Under the pieces are notes generated by a model. That model worked only from the letters and a program-made list of their open reading frames with translations, searched no databases and was not told the DNA's origin. A DNA stretch of 64,000 nt from NCBI RefSeq assembly GCF_023016155.1, contig NZ_JALKBG010000008.1, forward strand, positions 498,501-562,500, given 5' to 3'. Position numbers and translations under genes: made by a program. Below are positions 54,459-62,080 of the stretch, piece after piece (the stretch's first letter is position 1; every line of letters starts with the position of its first letter). Source of the DNA: Aliiroseovarius sp. F20344 (GTDB lineage Bacteria; Pseudomonadota; Alphaproteobacteria; Rhodobacterales; Rhodobacteraceae).

Positions 54459-56714
54459 ATGAGCCGCTTTGCTGCCCCCATCGCCGAACAGATCTGGGAT
54501 ATGAAATACCGTTTGAAACAAGCGGATGGGACCCCCGAAGATCAAACGGTCGAGGATACGTGGCGACGTGTCGCGCGTGCCCTTTCGGCGTCAGAGACCG
54601 AGCAAGAGCAGCGATTCTACGAAGCCCTTGAAGATTTCAAATATCTGCCCGCAGGCCGCATCACCGCAGGCGCGGGCACAGGGCGCTCGGTCACCTTGTT
54701 CAACTGTTTTGTAATGGGCACCATCCCGGACAGCATGGGCGGCATTTTCGACATGCTGAAAGAAGCCGCGTTAACCATGCAGCAAGGTGGTGGGATCGGC
54801 TATGACTTCTCAACTATTCGCCCGCGTGGTGCGGATGTGATGGGCGTTGCGGCAGATGCATCTGGCCCGCTGTCTTTCATGGATGTCTGGGACGCAATGT
54901 GCCGCACCATCATGTCCGCAGGCTCGCGCCGCGGGGCGATGATGGCGACCATGCGTTGCGACCACCCGGACATTCAGGACTTCATCACCGCGAAATCTGA
55001 TGCCGCCCGACTGCGCATGTTCAACATGTCGGTACTTGTCACCGATGATTTCATGTCCGCTGTAAAGGAAGACGGCAGCTGGGATCTGAAGTTTGGCGAC
55101 ACGATCTATCATACGGTCGAGGCCCGTGATCTTTGGAATAAGATCATGAAGGCGACCTATGATTACGCAGAGCCGGGCGTGATTTTCATTGATCGCATCA
55201 ATCAGATGAACAATCTGAACTACTGCGAAACCATCGCGGCAACAAACCCGTGCGGCGAACAGCCCTTGCCGCCCTATGGCGCCTGTCTGCTGGGGTCGAT
55301 CAACCTTGCCAAACTGGTCACCGACCCGTTTGAGGATGCGGCCAAGCTTGATGGCGATGCTCTGACCGAATTGGTCGCCACTGCCGTGCGCATGATGGAC
55401 AACGTGGTCGATGAAAGCCGTTTCCCGCTGGAAGCTCAGGCGCAGGAAGCCCAAGCCAAACGCCGCATCGGTCTTGGTGTCACCGGACTGGCGGACGCGC
55501 TTTTGATGTTGGGTCTGCGGTACGGATCGGACGAGGCCGCGGCCCAGACCGAGGCGTGGATGAAGCAGATCGCACGCGCGTCTTATTTGGCGTCGGTCGA
55601 GCTGGCCAAGGAAAAGGGTCCGTTCCCGCTGTTTGACGCCGAAAAATTCCTCGCTTCGGGCTCGCTTCAGCACATGGATGATGACGTGCGCGAGGCGATC
55701 CGCGAACATGGCATCCGGAATGCGCTTCTGACCTCGATCGCGCCAACAGGCACCATCAGCCTCTATGCGGGCAACGTGTCCTCGGGCATCGAGCCGGTCT
55801 TCGCCTATGCGTACACGCGCAAAGTTCTGCAAAAAGACGGCACACGCACTGAAGAAGAGGTTGTGGATTACGCCGTGCAGCTATGGCGTGACAAATTCGG
55901 CGACAAAGAGCTGCCGGACTATTTCGTCAACGCACAAACATTGGCCCCGCTGGAGCACGTGAAGATGCAGGCAGCGGCCCAGAAATGGATCGACAGCTCG
56001 ATTTCGAAAACCATCAACTGCCCCGAAGACATCAGCTTTGATGACTTCAAGGACGTCTACATGGAAGCATGGGAAACCGGCTGCAAAGGCTGCACCACGT
56101 ATCGCCCCAATGACGTGACCGGATCGGTTCTGTCTGTGTCCGAGGAAAGCGAGAAAGCCCCCGAGGCTGATAGCGGTGCGGATGTAGTCTATATCTCAGA
56201 GCCATTGGACCGCCCGCAGTCTTTGGAGGGACATACCTACAAGGTGAAATGGCCTGACAGCGAGCACGCGATTTACATCACCGTGAACGACTTGATCATG
56301 AACGGCCATCGCCGCCCGTTTGAGGTTTTCATCAACTCCAAGAACATGGAGCATTTCGCCTGGACCGTTGCGCTCACCCGTATGATTTCGGCCGTGTTCC
56401 GGCGCGGGGGCGATGTGAGCTTTGTTGTGGAAGAACTGAAAGCCGTGTTCGACCCGCGCGGTGGTGCTTGGATGGATGGGAAATACATCCCCTCGATCTT
56501 GGCCGCGATCGGCTCTGTCATCGAACGCCACATGATCGCAACAGGGTTCCTTGAAGGCGAGGGCATGGGCCTGAAGTCTGACCCACAGGCCGAGGTTGTC
56601 AACCTGGGCGAACCGCCCCGTGGCAAAGCGTGCCCAAGCTGCGGACAGTTCGACATGCGCATGATCGAAGGGTGCATGACCTGCGCGTCATGTGGCCATT
56701 CAAAGTGCGGTTGA
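54459..56714 (+). CDS. nrdJ: Adenosylcobalamin-dependent ribonucleoside-diphosphate reductase
   Basis: The 751-residue class II reductase makes deoxynucleotides with B12 rather than a diiron/tyrosyl radical. It has the active-site N-x-C-x-E in NPCGEQPLPPYG and FNCFVMG. The C-terminal domain carries redox and zinc cysteines (CPSCGQ and CMTCASCG). No cobalamin riboswitch is visible upstream. The preceding tRNA-like gene is close enough to share a transcript. A 7-bp hairpin (CGGCTCC/GGAGCCG, 56740-56769) follows and may terminate transcription. Confidence 0.96.
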   Translation: MSRFAAPIAEQIWDMKYRLKQADGTPEDQTVEDTWRRVARALSASETEQEQRFYEALEDFKYLPAGRITAGAGTGRSVTLFNCFVMGTIPDSMGGIFDMLKEAALTMQQGGGIGYDFSTIRPRGADVMGVAADASGPLSFMDVWDAMCRTIMSAGSRRGAMMATMRCDHPDIQDFITAKSDAARLRMFNMSVLVTDDFMSAVKEDGSWDLKFGDTIYHTVEARDLWNKIMKATYDYAEPGVIFIDRINQMNNLNYCETIAATNPCGEQPLPPYGACLLGSINLAKLVTDPFEDAAKLDGDALTELVATAVRMMDNVVDESRFPLEAQAQEAQAKRRIGLGVTGLADALLMLGLRYGSDEAAAQTEAWMKQIARASYLASVELAKEKGPFPLFDAEKFLASGSLQHMDDDVREAIREHGIRNALLTSIAPTGTISLYAGNVSSGIEPVFAYAYTRKVLQKDGTRTEEEVVDYAVQLWRDKFGDKELPDYFVNAQTLAPLEHVKMQAAAQKWIDSSISKTINCPEDISFDDFKDVYMEAWETGCKGCTTYRPNDVTGSVLSVSEESEKAPEADSGADVVYISEPLDRPQSLEGHTYKVKWPDSEHAIYITVNDLIMNGHRRPFEVFINSKNMEHFAWTVALTRMISAVFRRGGDVSFVVEELKAVFDPRGGAWMDGKYIPSILAAIGSVIERHMIATGFLEGEGMGLKSDPQAEVVNLGEPPRGKACPSCGQFDMRMIEGCMTCASCGHSKCG

Positions 56715-57023: not shown

Positions 57024-57980
57024 ATGACCCAATCCACGCCGACTTTCATCCATATCGGGATACACAAGACCGGCTCATCCACTCTGCAGCAAAAATTCCG
57101 TACGCACCCGTCGATGTACTATGTCGAGCGGGCAGACGTACGCAATGCTTTCATTGGCCACTTGCTGGATTTTAACGAAGCACCATTTCAGGCCGAAACC
57201 GAACGCGCAACTGAGCAAGGTAAGGCTTTGGTCATGTCGCACGAGCGCCTGACAGGCTATCCCGCATCCGGCGGGTTTGATCGAGAAATCATCGCGGCCC
57301 GTTTGGCCAAAGCTTTTCCGGATGCGAAGATACTTGTCTTGTTCCGAGAGCAGTCCCGGTGGATCAAAAGCTTTTATCAACAATATGTGGCAGATGGAGG
57401 TGGATTGACGCTGAAAGAGTTTCTGACCAATCCGCAGCCTCAGATCTATAAACTGCCCGCGTTTGAGCTGGACTATCTGAACTATCACAAGCTTGTTTCT
57501 TTGTATCACAACAATTTTGGCGCGGAAAACGTCCTGGCCTTGCCTTACGAGCTTATGGTGCAAGACTTTGATTCATTTACAACGCGGTTGAATGCGTTCT
57601 TTGGATTTGATTTGCAGCTCGAAAACGAAGTGACAAATCGGTCGCGTCCGTTGATGCCGCTTCTGTTTATGCGTTTCGTGAATGGCACAATTGGCAATAC
57701 ACAGCTTTCACCCGGAGGCTTTGTGCCACTGGGGTACTTGAAATTGGCCACCAAGCTTTTGGGCAAAATTCCTGGCGCACGATCAATGGACAAACGAATT
57801 TCGACACGGTTTGATCGTCTGATTGAAGAAAAGATTGAAGGCTATTACGATGAAAGCAACGGGGATCTGGAAGCTCTGATCGGCATGGATTTGAAGCCGT
57901 TCGGGTATTTCCCTGATACGATTGAGGCACAGATGCAAAAGGACAGCAGCCCGATGCTGGGCGAAACGTCAATCATTTGA
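57024..57980 (+). CDS. Sulfotransferase-family protein
   Basis: The 318-residue protein begins with the PAPS 5'-phosphosulfate loop FIHIGIHKTGSSTLQ. The 3'-phosphate-binding region LVLFREQSRWIKSFYQQYV follows. That identifies the sulfotransferase superfamily, probably modifying a carbohydrate. It lies at the start of the surface-polysaccharide segment. The acceptor is unknown. No ribosome-binding consensus is obvious at the ATG, and base composition is lower in GC than the neighbouring nrdJ gene. Confidence 0.82.
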   Translation: MTQSTPTFIHIGIHKTGSSTLQQKFRTHPSMYYVERADVRNAFIGHLLDFNEAPFQAETERATEQGKALVMSHERLTGYPASGGFDREIIAARLAKAFPDAKILVLFREQSRWIKSFYQQYVADGGGLTLKEFLTNPQPQIYKLPAFELDYLNYHKLVSLYHNNFGAENVLALPYELMVQDFDSFTTRLNAFFGFDLQLENEVTNRSRPLMPLLFMRFVNGTIGNTQLSPGGFVPLGYLKLATKLLGKIPGARSMDKRISTRFDRLIEEKIEGYYDESNGDLEALIGMDLKPFGYFPDTIEAQMQKDSSPMLGETSII

Positions 57981-58067
57981 AGACGAAGCTCCGGCCACAT
58001 GATTTCTCGGGCCGCGAGGGGGTAAATTGGGGTAAGGATGGGCCGTGCCTTTGGGGCGGAGATTGAG

Positions 58068-58994
58068 ATGAACGAAATTTTACAAAATATTGATGCCGAG
58101 GTACTGGGCGCGGAATTGCCGCGCACAGATCGGTTTTACCGACAGCTTGTCCTGATCCGTCGGTTCGAACAAAAGCTGTTGGAGCTTTTCACCAACAATT
58201 TGCTCGCCGGAACAACGCATACGTCAATGGGACAAGAAGCGAATGCCGTGGCGATTATGGAAGCGCTTGAGCTGGACAAAGACATGGTTTGGTCCAACCA
58301 CCGCTGTCACGGGCATTTCCTGTCTTATTGTGGACAAAGCTATCGCCTGTTTGCCGAAATCTTGGGGCGCCGCACGGGCGCTTGTGGCGGGCGTGGTGGT
58401 TCGCAACACCTACACTGGCGCAACTTCTATTCGTCGGGCATTCAAGGGGGCTTTGCTGCAGCGGCCGTGGGTGCCGCATTGGCCGAGAAGGACAAAGGTG
58501 CGATCAGCTGTATCTTTATGGGCGACGGTACCATGGGCGAGGGGGCCGTCTACGAGGCGTTGAACTTCGCGTCGCTTCTGTCAGCACCTGTCTTGTTTGT
58601 GGTCGAGGACAACGGAATTGCGCAAACCACCCCAAAGGAACTGGGCGTGGCCGGGTCGATCACAGATCGTGCGAAGGCGTTTGGGATCGATTGCCATCAT
58701 ATTGCCAGCACCGATGCGGATGACATTTATAAAGGTGTTGCACCGATTGTAGATCAGATCCGATCAAGCGGGCGGCCCGCGTGGTTACATCTGGAAACGG
58801 TCCGCCTTGGCCCGCATTCCAAAGGCGATGATACGCGGGATGAAACCTACGTTGCCGAATTGCAAAAACGTGACCCGCTAGTGCTTTATCGGGATCGGGT
58901 TTCTGACCCGGACGCGTTGGAGCAATGGTGTGATGACCACATCGCCGAGGTACTTGAAGTAGCTTTGAAGGATGAAGTTGCATGCGCGTCGTAG
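58068..58994 (+). CDS. 2-oxoacid dehydrogenase E1 component, alpha subunit
   Basis: The 308-residue TPP enzyme subunit has FYRQLVLIRRFEQKL at the start, the active-site NHRCHGHFLS region, the diphosphate/metal motif MGDGTMGEG...EDNG, and the loop TRDETY near the C-terminus. It matches the alpha subunit of pyruvate or acetoin dehydrogenase. ATG 58068 follows GGAG by 7 nt. It is coupled to the beta gene (13 nt overlap) and then to the lipoyl-NeuD fusion, so it decarboxylates a 2-oxoacid for transfer to that protein. The substrate is unknown. Confidence 0.92.
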   Translation: MNEILQNIDAEVLGAELPRTDRFYRQLVLIRRFEQKLLELFTNNLLAGTTHTSMGQEANAVAIMEALELDKDMVWSNHRCHGHFLSYCGQSYRLFAEILGRRTGACGGRGGSQHLHWRNFYSSGIQGGFAAAAVGAALAEKDKGAISCIFMGDGTMGEGAVYEALNFASLLSAPVLFVVEDNGIAQTTPKELGVAGSITDRAKAFGIDCHHIASTDADDIYKGVAPIVDQIRSSGRPAWLHLETVRLGPHSKGDDTRDETYVAELQKRDPLVLYRDRVSDPDALEQWCDDHIAEVLEVALKDEVACAS

Positions 58995-59911
58995 AAGAGC
59001 TGCGGGACAGCCTGTTTTCAATCATGCAACGTGATCCTAAGACGATTGTCTTGGGGGAAGATCTATTGGATCCGTATGGCGGGGCCTTCAAGGTCACGCA
59101 GGGATTGTCGGACGCCTATCCAGACAATGTGATCACGACTCCGATTTCAGAGGCCGGCCTTGTCGGAGTCGGACTTGGTATGGCCTTGCGCGGACGCACA
59201 GTTCTGGCTGAGATCATGTTTGGCGATTTTCTGACCCTGACCACAGATCAATTGGTCAACCATGCCGCCAAGGTAAAATGGATGTTCAACGACGCTGTGG
59301 ATGCAAGCCTTGTGGTGCGCACGCCTATGGGCGGCGGACGCGGTTATGGGCCGACGCATTCGCAAAGCATCGAAAAGCATTTTTGCGGTGTGCCGGGGCT
59401 GACCGTCATGGCCGTAAACCAATTTCAAAGCCCCGGTGAGCTTCTGAAACAGGCAGCGGGACTTGGCAGCCCGGTTTTGTTCATTGAGAACAAGATCATG
59501 TATTCGAAACTGGTCGAGCCTGATCGCCTTGTCAGCTACGACCGGCCTGATGCGGTCATTCTGACCTATGGCGGCGTGACCGAGTTTTGCGTGCAGTCAG
59601 CCGAACGGCTGTTGGAGGATGAAGAGATCACGGTCGAAGTGGTACCAGTGCAACACTTGTCGCCAATGCCAGGCGATCTTATCCGCGCGGCGGCTTCGAA
59701 ATCGGATCGTGTTTTCACGGTCGAGGAAGGATCGGAAAGCTGGGGTTTTGGGGCCGCAGTGGCCGAGGAAATTCTGTCAGCGGGTATAGCCCCGCGTCAT
59801 TTCCAATCCATTGCTGCCGATCCGACCGCAATCCCAAGTGCGCGCAATTGGGAATTGGAAATCCTACCCAGCGTCGACAAAATCGAACGCGCAGTTTTGG
59901 CTTCGTTCTAA
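58982..59911 (+). CDS. 2-oxoacid dehydrogenase E1 component, beta subunit
   Basis: The 309-residue partner of the alpha subunit has LGEDLLDPYGGAFKVTQG, PISEAGLVGVGLGMAL (the TPP-activating glutamate) and FGDFLTL. A C-terminal transketolase-C domain includes EVVPVQHLSPMP. It completes the alpha2-beta2 E1. In PDH-like complexes this subunit docks on the small binding domain of E2, which is present in the next gene. Its gene lies 10 bp upstream of the fusion gene. Confidence 0.92.
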   Translation: MRVVEELRDSLFSIMQRDPKTIVLGEDLLDPYGGAFKVTQGLSDAYPDNVITTPISEAGLVGVGLGMALRGRTVLAEIMFGDFLTLTTDQLVNHAAKVKWMFNDAVDASLVVRTPMGGGRGYGPTHSQSIEKHFCGVPGLTVMAVNQFQSPGELLKQAAGLGSPVLFIENKIMYSKLVEPDRLVSYDRPDAVILTYGGVTEFCVQSAERLLEDEEITVEVVPVQHLSPMPGDLIRAAASKSDRVFTVEEGSESWGFGAAVAEEILSAGIAPRHFQSIAADPTAIPSARNWELEILPSVDKIERAVLASF

Positions 59912-59921
59912 AGGAAAAATC

Positions 59922-61010
59922 ATGGCACTTATCGACATCATGACCCCTCGGGTAAATGCAAATGAAGACGAGGTTTTGGTTGCCGAGCTGAACGTTGCAG
60001 TCGGCGATCAGGTCGAAGAGGGGGATCTTCTGATCTCGGCCGAGACGACGAAAGCCTCGGTTGATATTGAAGCCACGCATGCTGGAACGGTCGCCAAGAT
60101 CAACGCCAAAAAAGGCCGGATGATCGCAAGCGGCAGTGTGATTTTGGTGATCGACACTTGCGGCGATGACGCAGCAGCGGGTGATGAGGCCGGCGGGGCT
60201 GACGCTGGCAGCGCCGAGGTTAAGGTGACCACCAAAGCACGCATGCGGGCGGAAGAACTTGGCGTGGATCTGGATACAGTTCAGCCTAAAGCTGGCCGTA
60301 TTGGCGTGTCCGAAGTCGAAGCGGCGGCACGCAAAGGCTCGGGTGACGGACCGGCTGTCACTGCGATGCAAGCCGTCTTGGTCGGCGGCGGTGGTCATGG
60401 TGCGACGATTGGTGAAATCGCTGTGGCGTGTGGTTGGGACTTGGTTGGCGCAGTTGATGGTAAACTGCCAAAAGGAACACAGGTCATTTCCGGGGTTCAG
60501 GTGATCGATACCGATGATGCGTTGCAGTCACTTTATGACAGCGGAGTGCGCGTTGCGTTTGTGGGTATTGGCGGCGCGACCTCGTCCGAGACGCGCAAGG
60601 CGGTCTATGAAAAGCTGTACGCCATTGGTTTTATCATGCCGCCATTGGTCCACCCGACGGCTCATTTCGGTGCGGATGTGAAACTAGGGCCGGCAAGCTA
60701 TGTGTTGCCAAACGCCATGGTTGGTCCACGGTGCCGGATTGGGGCAAATGTGATTGTGAATTCGTCCAGCACGGTGGCTCATGATTGCGTAGTTGGGGAT
60801 CATGCCCATTTGACACCCGCAGCGATCCTTGCTGGTAATGTTGGCATTGGTGAGGGCAGTGTTGTTGGAATGGGGGCATCGGTGCTCTTTGGCGTTTCCG
60901 TTGGGCAGGGTTGCCTGATCCACAACAATGTTTCCGTCCTGATGGACGTTCCTGACTTTACCGAATTGTCATTGGAACACGCCCCGAAACGCAGGGACCT
61001 TGAAGTCTAG
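59922..61010 (+). CDS. Lipoyl domain - E1/E3-binding domain - NeuD/PglD-type acyltransferase fusion
   Basis: The 362-residue protein is continuous in one frame. Residues 1-80 are a lipoyl domain with the modifiable lysine at about position 44 (in ETTKASVDIE). About 100-139 are a peripheral subunit-binding domain (TTKARMRAEELGVDLDTV ... GRIGVSEVEAA). From about 150 it is a NeuD/PglD sugar O/N-acyltransferase with the GGGGHG nucleotide loop, hexapeptide-repeat beta-helix and the catalytic His in VAHDCVVGDHAHL. The E2 catalytic core is absent. AAAGGA precedes the ATG. The stop overlaps the convergent glycosyltransferase stop as CTAG. Confidence 0.88.
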   Translation: MALIDIMTPRVNANEDEVLVAELNVAVGDQVEEGDLLISAETTKASVDIEATHAGTVAKINAKKGRMIASGSVILVIDTCGDDAAAGDEAGGADAGSAEVKVTTKARMRAEELGVDLDTVQPKAGRIGVSEVEAAARKGSGDGPAVTAMQAVLVGGGGHGATIGEIAVACGWDLVGAVDGKLPKGTQVISGVQVIDTDDALQSLYDSGVRVAFVGIGGATSSETRKAVYEKLYAIGFIMPPLVHPTAHFGADVKLGPASYVLPNAMVGPRCRIGANVIVNSSSTVAHDCVVGDHAHLTPAAILAGNVGIGEGSVVGMGASVLFGVSVGQGCLIHNNVSVLMDVPDFTELSLEHAPKRRDLEV

Positions 61011-62080
61011 CTTTCCTTTGTCGCCCGCGCGATGACTTGGTCCCAGTCCTGTAGAATTTGGCTAGGGGCCAACCGGTCGCGGTTGATCGCGGCCGCGTCC
61101 GCCATATGCGTGCGCAAGTCGCGATCCTTCAGCAATCGAATGATGTTATCCGCCAAAGCTTCGCTGTCATCGACAGGAACGAGCAATCCGTTTTCGCCTT
61201 CGGAGATGATCTCGCGCGGGCCGAAATCACAATCGGTGGACACCACGGGCAGGCCGTTGACGGTGGCTTCTGCCAGTACATTGGGGAAGCCCTCAAACCG
61301 CGAGGGCATGACCAGCACATCCGCGTCGGATAGCCACGAACCGGGTGTCGGGCTCGCCCCTGGCAGGGCGACGTGATCGGTCAGGGAAAGAGATGAGCGC
61401 AGCTCTTCCAAATGCGCGCGCTCCGGCCCTTCGCCGTGGATGGTCAGTTTTGCCTCTGGAACCGCTTGGATGATTTGGACCATTGCGTGCAAAAGAACGT
61501 CAAAGCCCTTTTGCTTGTCCAAACGTCCGACTGCAACCATTCGGTTCTTCACAGAATTCGGAGCGGCTTTGTGAGTCTCGTGCGGGGCGCATGGGTTCGG
61601 AATCACTACAGATGTGCCCTGTACCGAAGAGGGCAAGTCTGCACGCGCCCGTTCCGTTTGCATCACGGCGCAGGCTGCACGGCGCACCAACAGGTTCTGT
61701 GCGTGCCGCCAGACTGGATGGGCATTCTGGGCACGTGGATTGTTGCGTTCTGAAATCACAACCGGGGTGCCGGTTCCAATGGCAGCGGCAAGGCTGAGGA
61801 CATTCACTTTTGTCAAGAAGGACAGAACCACATCAGGGCGTTCGCGTCGGATAGCTTGCCGGATCATTTTTAACCGCGCAAAAGGGGATCCGCTTTTCGC
61901 CCCATCTGGTACAAGAAGCTGAACGTCTTCGGGGTAGGGGAAATAGGACCCGCTTTCGGGCATGTCAAAACCCATGACGGTCACATCATTCCCAAGTTGT
62001 GCGCGATAGGCGGCGATCATGGCGACAACCTTTTCAGCGCCGCCTGCGCCGAATCCGCCCTGTATCATTAGGATTTTCAC
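61007..62080 (-). CDS. Glycosyltransferase, GT4-like
   Basis: The 357-residue protein is a two-Rossmann GT-B glycosyltransferase. The donor domain has VAVGRLDKQKGFDVLL and the E-x7-E motif PSRFEGFPNVLAEA. The N-terminal GGFGAGGAEKVVAMIAA suggests an acceptor loop. It probably adds one sugar during surface-polysaccharide synthesis. It lies 4 bp downstream of the family 2 glycosyltransferase in the same operon. Confidence 0.9.
   Translation of the reverse strand: MKILMIQGGFGAGGAEKVVAMIAAYRAQLGNDVTVMGFDMPESGSYFPYPEDVQLLVPDGAKSGSPFARLKMIRQAIRRERPDVVLSFLTKVNVLSLAAAIGTGTPVVISERNNPRAQNAHPVWRHAQNLLVRRAACAVMQTERARADLPSSVQGTSVVIPNPCAPHETHKAAPNSVKNRMVAVGRLDKQKGFDVLLHAMVQIIQAVPEAKLTIHGEGPERAHLEELRSSLSLTDHVALPGASPTPGSWLSDADVLVMPSRFEGFPNVLAEATVNGLPVVSTDCDFGPREIISEGENGLLVPVDDSEALADNIIRLLKDRDLRTHMADAAAINRDRLAPSQILQDWDQVIARATKES

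Follow-up and report, generated by a model that had tools for sequence, protein, structure and literature searches.

The 64,000-nucleotide stretch of Aliiroseovarius sp. F20344 analysed herein (contig NZ_JALKBG010000008.1; hereafter the window) carries, at 58068-61010 on the + strand, a tight row of three genes, in which E1-alpha and E1-beta genes of the kind known from 2-oxoacid dehydrogenase complexes are followed by a gene that joins a lipoyl domain to a sugar acyltransferase of the hexapeptide type. This architecture had been proposed from the letters of the DNA alone (the sequence-only reading), and it was borne out by a Pfam domain search:

58068..58994, + strand: E1-alpha (thiamine-diphosphate binding), 308 amino acids; Pfam E1_dh 148.5 bits, and clade placement
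58982..59911, + strand: E1-beta, 309 amino acids, overlapping E1-alpha; Pfam Transket_pyr 90.8 bits and Transketolase_C 56 bits
59922..61010, + strand: fusion protein with lipoyl, subunit-binding-like and NeuD/PglD hexapeptide acyltransferase parts, 362 amino acids; Pfam, NCBIfam and alignment

E1-alpha has an alternative in-frame start at 58038 and a GDG..N motif (seen by eye), and Glu57 and His126 are present in all E1-beta rows shown of the alignment. Two other Aliiroseovarius genomes carry the fusion as one contiguous frame at 89-90% identity, alongside E1-beta at 93-94% and E1-alpha at 88-89%. A sequencing or assembly error that fused two genes, a possibility raised with the sequence-only reading, is ruled out because the frame is joined in three Aliiroseovarius genomes as well as in five other lineages.

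Domains of the fusion protein

Six features were placed along the third gene product:

59937..60152, + strand: lipoyl domain, residues 6-77; Pfam Biotin_lipoyl 50.2 bits, cut-off 22.1
60051-60053, + strand: candidate lipoyl lysine K44; K44 and E41 invariant in 7/7 fusion rows
60216..60341, + strand: peripheral-subunit-binding-like domain, about residues 99-140; sub-cut-off Pfam match, hhalign, model helices
60375..60617, + strand: PglD_N domain of the nucleotide-sugar-binding type, residues 152-232; Pfam 34.7 bits, cut-off 23.4
60663..60956, + strand: left-handed beta-helix acyltransferase domain, about residues 248-345; Hexapep 43.7 bits, cut-off 27
60780-60782, + strand: catalytic-type His287; invariant in 7 fusion rows and 19 rows of alignment A5

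The CAT core of an E2, which had been read as missing, is indeed absent: among the Pfam matches of the fusion, listed to E = 10, there was none to the 2-oxoacid_dh family (CAT, PF00198). Four related E1 operons served as a control, and in each of them the third gene matched this family (L131 133, L133 106, L106 112 and L107 127 bits), so that a hidden CAT domain is ruled out. In its place stands an acyltransferase half whose nearest solved relative by sequence is PerB (E 6.9e-23), followed by the acetyltransferase domain of PglB, and which scores 153.4 bits against the NCBIfam NeuD/PglB/VioB family TIGR03570, below the cut-off of 160.8. His287 aligns with the PerB residue altered in the H141N and H141A structures 4eaa and 4eab, which agrees with the catalytic histidine called from sequence. 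Fold comparison of a structure model also put PerB and PglB first, a result to be read with the low confidence of that model (mean pLDDT, the predicted local distance difference test score, of 59); because of this low score, and because the lipoyl part was left unmodelled, we used only its PglD part and two helices.

These predicted helices (104-113 and 129-138) form a helix-loop-helix in the middle domain, which also aligned with ten E2-type proteins in an hhalign profile-profile comparison (probability 87.7, P 3.4e-6). The domain thus appears to resemble the peripheral-subunit-binding domain of E2 in divergent form, and of the E1/E3-binding domain claimed earlier, the profile comparison and the helices are in favour while the Pfam score, below cut-off, is not. 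The linker of the arm is Ala/Gly-rich.

Ratios of nonsynonymous to synonymous substitution (dN/dS) were estimated between the window and its two Aliiroseovarius relatives, and are rough given the high synonymous divergence. The lipoyl domain gave 0.03-0.06, the binding domain 0.04-0.06, PglD_N 0.02-0.03 and the linkers 0.18-0.33; the beta-helix gave 0.016 in the sole unsaturated comparison (the other of the two being saturated). The lipoyl domain is therefore under strong purifying selection, which is not the pattern of a non-functional domain, and the selection on the lipoyl and binding domains is about as strong as that on the acyltransferase core.

Recurrence and sugar loci in distant lineages

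The sequence-only reading had called for a search for the same fusion with E1 genes elsewhere, and such a search found it in two relatives within the genus and in five other lineages. In the genus sample the fusion is present in 3/21 genomes, namely the window's own and the two relatives (matched by coordinates). A class sample of 385 genomes, queried with E1-alpha, added one further strong case (G573), and a profile search of a 398-genome phylum sample gave 19 genomes with a match at E <=1e-60. The third gene was a lipoyl-NeuD fusion in 5 of these 19 (own, G831, G801, G630, G921), a lipoyl domain fused to another kind of hexapeptide transferase in one (G731), and an E2 with CAT in four, where Pfam bore out the CAT domain of G682 and G607, and those of G672 and G596 were read by eye (a second place in G596 lies near a contig end, and the genes that follow it are not visible). 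In the trees described below, the E1s of the other nine genomes fall among those of primary metabolism. The NeuD-type fusion is thus known from six lineages in total (own genus, G831, G573, G801, G630, G921).

The five lineages outside the genus share only 20-41% identity with the window's fusion, and despite this divergence E41, K44 and H287 are invariant in all 7 aligned fusion rows. The E1 genes adjoin the fusion in all six lineages, and both the lipoyl and Hexapep domains score above the Pfam cut-off in all five others; PglD_N is above its cut-off in G831 and G921, below it in G630 and unmatched at E 0.01 in G573 and G801.

Within the surrounding taxa the unit is scarce. In the class of G630 the E1 clade was found in 6/48 genomes, one of them (G630) with a NeuD-type fusion; the family of G801 gave a match in 1/121 genomes; the class of G921 gave 5/321, with G921 as the strong case and the other four at 239-243 bits; and in the host family 17/198 genomes matched, with only the window's own matching over both halves. 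Of 63 plasmid records matched by the fusion, none covered 80% of the query in a single place, and E1-alpha had no relative in a scan of viral sequences. A contig scan, which reaches close relatives only, showed the fusion with E1 in two loci among the best 80 of 421, and in three further loci of these 80 (L030, L032, L045) the lipoyl-type match lies >4 kilobases (kb) away from the acyltransferase match. This distribution suggests that the unit is sporadic and rare, and it fits horizontal spread.

The loci that hold the unit bear on the acceptor. In G801 a single strand carries, in order, NeuC (417 bits), NeuB (389 bits, just below cut-off), a PseF-type cytidylyltransferase (163 bits, below cut-off), a dihydrolipoyl dehydrogenase (E3; 447 bits, cut-off 408.8), a polysaccharide deacetylase, a fused E1 and the lipoyl-NeuD fusion, so that E3 lies one gene away from E1. 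In G921 the neighbours include PseB, PseC and PseF, all above cut-off, and another aminotransferase-family gene. By their gene content, the units of G801 and G921 sit in loci of the sialate/pseudaminate (nonulosonate) type. G573 has a glucose-1-phosphate cytidylyltransferase (RfbF), a cytidine diphosphate (CDP)-glucose 4,6-dehydratase (RfbG, 2 kb from the unit) and an RmlC-type epimerase upstream, with flagellar genes (by eye) further upstream. Thus four of the six lineages (own, G573, G801, G921) have the unit beside tested nucleotide-sugar or nonulosonate genes, and one has E3 beside E1. In G630, flagellins lie upstream (by eye), and an aminotransferase-family gene (below every cut-off) and a WbuC cupin lie downstream; an initial view of this cupin as FdtA-like was replaced by the WbuC assignment. 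No nucleotide-sugar gene was recognised within 18 kb around the unit of G831, where an acyltransferase-3 gene adjoins the fusion; a gene similar to it by eye lies ~3 kb past the window genome's fusion. The flagellin 'lipoylation' that appears in the available part of PMC4875605 concerns fatty-acid genes rather than lipoic acid, and was set aside as irrelevant.

Several observations were made on related operons. The G731 fusion (L136:6997-9216, - strand) is a 740-amino-acid protein with a lipoyl domain and a hexapeptide transferase without PglD_N, with E1 genes of the same clade alongside, and its locus also holds NeuC, NeuB, NeuD, a LegC-like aminotransferase (388 bits, cut-off 420) and a polysaccharide deacetylase; the swap of an E2 core for a hexapeptide domain may, judging from this protein, have occurred more than once. 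Polysaccharide-deacetylase-family genes adjoin the E1/lipoyl/acyltransferase genes in two nonulosonate loci (L137:10234-11160 and L136:5984-7000, both - strand), where a deacetylase and the unit could strip an N-acetyl group and put another acyl group in its place. In G607, a separate hexapeptide-transferase-like gene (L133:8349-9056, + strand) lies directly upstream of a fused E1, with a CAT-type E2 next, and this arrangement is perhaps an unfused version of the E1/acyltransferase pairing. The canonical E2 motif is HxxxDG; the E2s at L131:11167-12303, L132:10366-11505 and L135:10625-12277 (all + strand), which go with E1s of this clade, have HRFING or HRVTEG, and that of L133 has HRVADG. Cysteine pairs of the CxxC type, seen by eye, terminate the E2s of L133 and L135.

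E1 kinship and a possible acyl relay

The E1-alpha tree (33 rows) and the E1-beta tree (32 rows) each fall into two groups, with split support of 100/99 and 100/100 (only this main split was used; several branches are long and the inner forks open). The primary-metabolism group (14 rows) includes the Sinorhizobium acetoin dehydrogenase operon and the genome's own pyruvate dehydrogenase. The second group (19 E1-alpha and 18 E1-beta rows) holds the window, every fusion lineage, RenH, and E1s of Streptomyces and Paenibacillus that lie beside an acyl carrier protein (ACP). RenH, from the renieramycin plasmid, is the sole named protein of the glycolicacyl kind in the trees (NapB and QncN lie outside them), and we take it, with RenI, to belong to the NapB/QncN family. 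Residues chosen after the split was known follow it: E1-beta Thr125 occurs in 18/18 clade rows, against Gln in 14/14 others; E1-alpha Ser122 and Asp255 occur in 19/19 clade rows and 0/14 others, and Gln113 and Ala185 in 19/19 clade rows and also 2/14 others.

We consider it probable, at about 0.66, that the three genes form a relay free of coenzyme A (CoA), which passes an acyl group from thiamine diphosphate to a lipoyl arm and on to a sugar. E1-alpha/beta would cleave a donor, most likely one that gives a C2 unit, on thiamine diphosphate to form an adduct of the acyl-thiamine-diphosphate type, and would reductively acylate the lipoyl arm at Lys44; the arm would then swing on its Ala/Gly-rich linker to the beta-helix core, where His287 would activate a sugar, nucleotide-linked or free, at its amine or hydroxyl so that it takes up the acyl group directly. 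E3 would reoxidise the arm, being shared with the central complexes in this genome and supplied beside the E1 genes in G801. The E3 that had been expected from elsewhere is available, as three lipoamide dehydrogenase (TIGR01350) genes in the genome score above the family cut-off, none of them adjacent to the operon. Direct use of an acyl-lipoyl group on a sugar, the central proposal of the sequence-only reading, gains support at the level of sequence from the recurrence in six lineages, the invariant lysine and histidine, and the G801 and G921 loci. Since both kinds of core, the hexapeptide acyltransferase and the E2 CAT, form trimers, an exchange of one for the other would be structurally easy.

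The donor can be narrowed only in part. One version of the relay would have E1 decarboxylate pyruvate or another 2-oxoacid, as was initially assumed, so that the sugar gets an acetyl or related group. The best curated and the best solved relatives of E1 do point this way, being pyruvate dehydrogenase E1 models and human pyruvate dehydrogenase E1-alpha, respectively, and a pepteridine system with E1- and E2-like parts is proposed, in the available part of PMC5384830, to load its carrier from alpha-keto acids. However, the window's E1 scores far under the pyruvate-dehydrogenase cut-off (187.9 vs 393.85 bits), groups in the trees with RenH and the ACP-linked systems, and carries the residues of that clade, including Thr125 of E1-beta where the other group has Gln; decarboxylation of a 2-oxoacid is therefore less well supported than it first seemed, and we hold this version to be rather unlikely. 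The available part of PMC6335953 describes QncN, QncL and QncM as a system in which an ACP receives a glycolicacyl unit that comes from a ketose phosphate, with SclQ1-4 assigned by homology. Because E1 groups with ACP-linked systems whose relatives use reported or proposed ketose donors, we lean towards a glycolyl group from a ketose as slightly more likely than an acetyl group from a 2-oxoacid, a preference that derives from E1 kinship. Put at its fullest, and only tentatively, a ketol-cleaving E1 would load glycolyl onto the lipoyl arm for transfer to a sugar (for example to give an N-glycolyl amino sugar or nonulosonate) with neither CoA nor ACP, in a three-gene cassette that spread between distant bacteria for the decoration of flagella and surface polysaccharides.

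That the acyltransferase half instead uses acetyl-CoA, with the lipoyl and binding domains as a tether or regulatory remnant, appears unlikely. The structures of PerB, PglB-ATD, PglD and VioB, which include CoA or acetyl-CoA complexes, and a NeuD family score close to cut-off would suit this explanation, but the lipoyl and binding domains are selected about as strongly as the core, E1 genes lie beside the fusion in every one of the six lineages, and a C-terminal motif of the free enzymes is gone. This motif, G-x-P-[AS], is frequent and not universal in NeuD/PglD/VioB relatives: it is present in 30/37 free NeuD/PglD relatives and in 0/6 fusion lineages. The stand-alone NeuD of the G731 locus also keeps it (GVPAR). 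Two of the free proteins (L017 and L089) have weak lipoyl-like matches (E 7.5e-4 and 0.003) that overlap the start of the PglD match and are taken as chance; without them the count is 28/35. The hypergeometric chance of drawing six motif-less proteins from 43 is 2.8e-4, for free rows that are not independent. In hexapeptide acetyltransferases this segment lies by the CoA. We regard the absence of the motif as a possible pointer to a non-CoA donor, not as proof.

It is more improbable still that the hexapeptide domain hands the acyl group of the lipoyl arm to ACP or CoA, as a small carrier, rather than to a sugar. Sister systems of the same E1 clade do have an adjacent ACP (Pfam-confirmed for L106), yet none was seen by eye among the open reading frames of >=55 amino acids at 56.7-61.1 kb, the transferase of the window bears a PglD_N domain, and the tested sister systems with an ACP or a nonribosomal peptide synthetase (NRPS) retain CAT (L106, L107).

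Some observations weigh against the CoA-free relay to a sugar. In the protein itself, E3_binding reached only 14.7 bits on residues 106-127 (Pfam cut-off 23.7), and at E <=0.01 Pfam missed it in each of the five fusion lineages outside the genus; PglD_N is above cut-off in only three of the six lineages (window, G831, G921); and TIGR03570 gave 131.5-160.3 bits on the other five, none of which reaches cut-off. The free proteins behind the G-x-P-[AS] count are not independent rows, and the lipoyl-hexapeptide fusion of G731 retains GIPA. In the genus, L004 keeps the window's arrangement, but in L003 the unit is elsewhere, with the operon as the only shared stretch, off the sugar cluster. The CDP-glucose 4,6-dehydratase is present in 6/21 genus genomes (2/3 with the fusion and 4/18 without) and so does not track it, and NeuB is present in 2/21, in none of the three fusion genomes. 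The L003 placement and the RfbG and NeuB profiles thus point to no particular acceptor in the window genome, and they weaken the standing of the window's sugar cluster as proof of function.

The relay has partial counterparts among known systems. It is like the 2-oxoacid dehydrogenase complexes (pyruvate, branched-chain, acetoin) in its E1-alpha/beta, a linker-borne lipoyl domain, a putative subunit-binding-like domain and an expected dependence on E3, and it differs from them in that a sugar acyltransferase of an unrelated fold, the left-handed beta-helix, stands where CAT would be and that its E1s fall outside the primary-metabolism group. With the glycolicacyl-ACP systems (NapB/NapD, QncN/QncL, SclQ1-4, RenH/RenI) it shares an E1 clade, through RenH and the ACP-E1-E1-E2 genes of Streptomyces. 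Those tested retain CAT (RenI 127 and L106 112 bits), unlike the fusion, and systems of the SclQ and QncM type load an ACP, of which none was seen by eye beside the window operon. LpxA and LpxD are beta-helix acyltransferases that take their acyl group from a protein-bound thioester (ACP) and not from CoA; their donor arm is the phosphopantetheine of ACP rather than lipoyl, and the sequence match is weak (~50 bits). The NeuD/PglD/VioB/PerB sugar N- and O-acetyltransferases share PglD_N, the hexapeptide core and the catalytic-type histidine, whereas here these are fused to a lipoyl arm, with dedicated E1 genes alongside and the common C-terminal G-x-P-[AS] absent. E1/lipoyl units proposed or shown to load non-CoA carriers set a precedent, and the glycolicacyl systems are alike in that hijacked dehydrogenase parts feed a non-CoA acceptor, as far as the available parts of PMC5384830 and PMC6335953 go. 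The pepteridine locus, with an E1-like gene and an E2-T-C fusion proposed to transfer an acyl group to a free small molecule, and with no E3 in the locus in the available part of PMC5384830, comes close; it differs in having an NRPS carrier and condensation domain with the E2-like part, where the window has a sugar acyltransferase in place of the E2 core.

A hijacked dehydrogenase module is thus already known, and one with a sugar acyltransferase in place of the E2 core is, as far as we found, apparently new: the literature matches listed (titles and abstract openings, with subscription literature mostly outside) described no fusion of a lipoyl domain with such an acyltransferase, a weak negative. 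Bacterial sugar acylation is taught as dependent on CoA or ACP, and lipoyl arms as serving central metabolism. The same swap in distant bacteria suggests that acyl groups are passed straight to sugars without CoA. If true, a lipoyl arm wired into a sugar acyltransferase would join the two fields, the E2 core of a dehydrogenase complex would be exchangeable for an unrelated fold, and the unusual N-acyl groups of nonulosonic acids and flagellin glycans would have a source.

The window's sugar cluster and neighbouring genes

In the window genome, a cytidylyltransferase (RfbF), a CDP-glucose 4,6-dehydratase (RfbG) and an RfbH-like protein lie 4-7 kb past the fusion. The RfbH-like protein (L101:9153-10358, - strand; ~65153-66358 in window numbering, past the window end) scores 301 bits against a cut-off of 423, and has a His at the pyridoxal-phosphate-type lysine site of the L102 aminotransferase (read from the sequences), a replacement that would fit a 3-dehydrase. 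Together with the CDP-glucose genes it would likely make a 3,6-dideoxy sugar. CDP-3,6-dideoxy-4-keto sugars are the kind of substrate used by YerE, and these genes would yield one, so that the E1 pair could be a carboligase which extends a CDP-4-keto-deoxy sugar by a two-carbon branch, a reaction described for AviB1/AviB2 and YerE in other pathways, with the fused acyltransferase decorating the product. We think this improbable. In its favour, RfbG also lies 2 kb from the G573 unit, and AviB1/B2 and Pau11/12 are described as pyruvate-dehydrogenase-like in the available part of PMC4425429; yet a carboligase has no need of a lipoyl arm, whose lysine is invariant, other lineages sit with NeuB/NeuC or PseB/C/F rather than CDP-sugar genes, and the fusion is not tracking RfbG within the genus.

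As for the acceptor in the relay to a sugar, the amino sugar proposed from sequence alone seems likely in some relatives, while the nearest pathway genes in the window genome would yield a CDP-deoxy-4-keto sugar. A NeuB pathway as acceptor source in the genus is ruled out, as NeuB and the fusion do not co-occur. Some 25 kb past the fusion, a formyltransferase, a PIG-L deacetylase and a DegT aminotransferase lie in a row (L102:9739-12682, + strand), likely an amino-sugar editing cassette, which suggests that amino sugars may be edited in the neighbourhood of the window's fusion.

The operon is flanked by two further genes:

57024..57980, + strand: sulfotransferase-family protein, upstream of the operon; Sulfotransfer_3 39.3 bits, cut-off 27
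61007..62080, - strand: glycosyltransferase-like neighbour, convergent; named by eye

The polysaccharide role once drawn from such neighbours is now less supported, given that the L003 unit lies away from the sugar cluster. A homologue of the sulfotransferase adjoins the operon in L004 too (by eye), and the glycosyltransferase-like gene is present in L004 and absent from L003. Further upstream, the window encodes a 751-amino-acid ribonucleotide-reductase-like protein (54459-56714, + strand), by eye of the B12-dependent type and ordinary, whose gene lies upstream of the operon in L004 as well.

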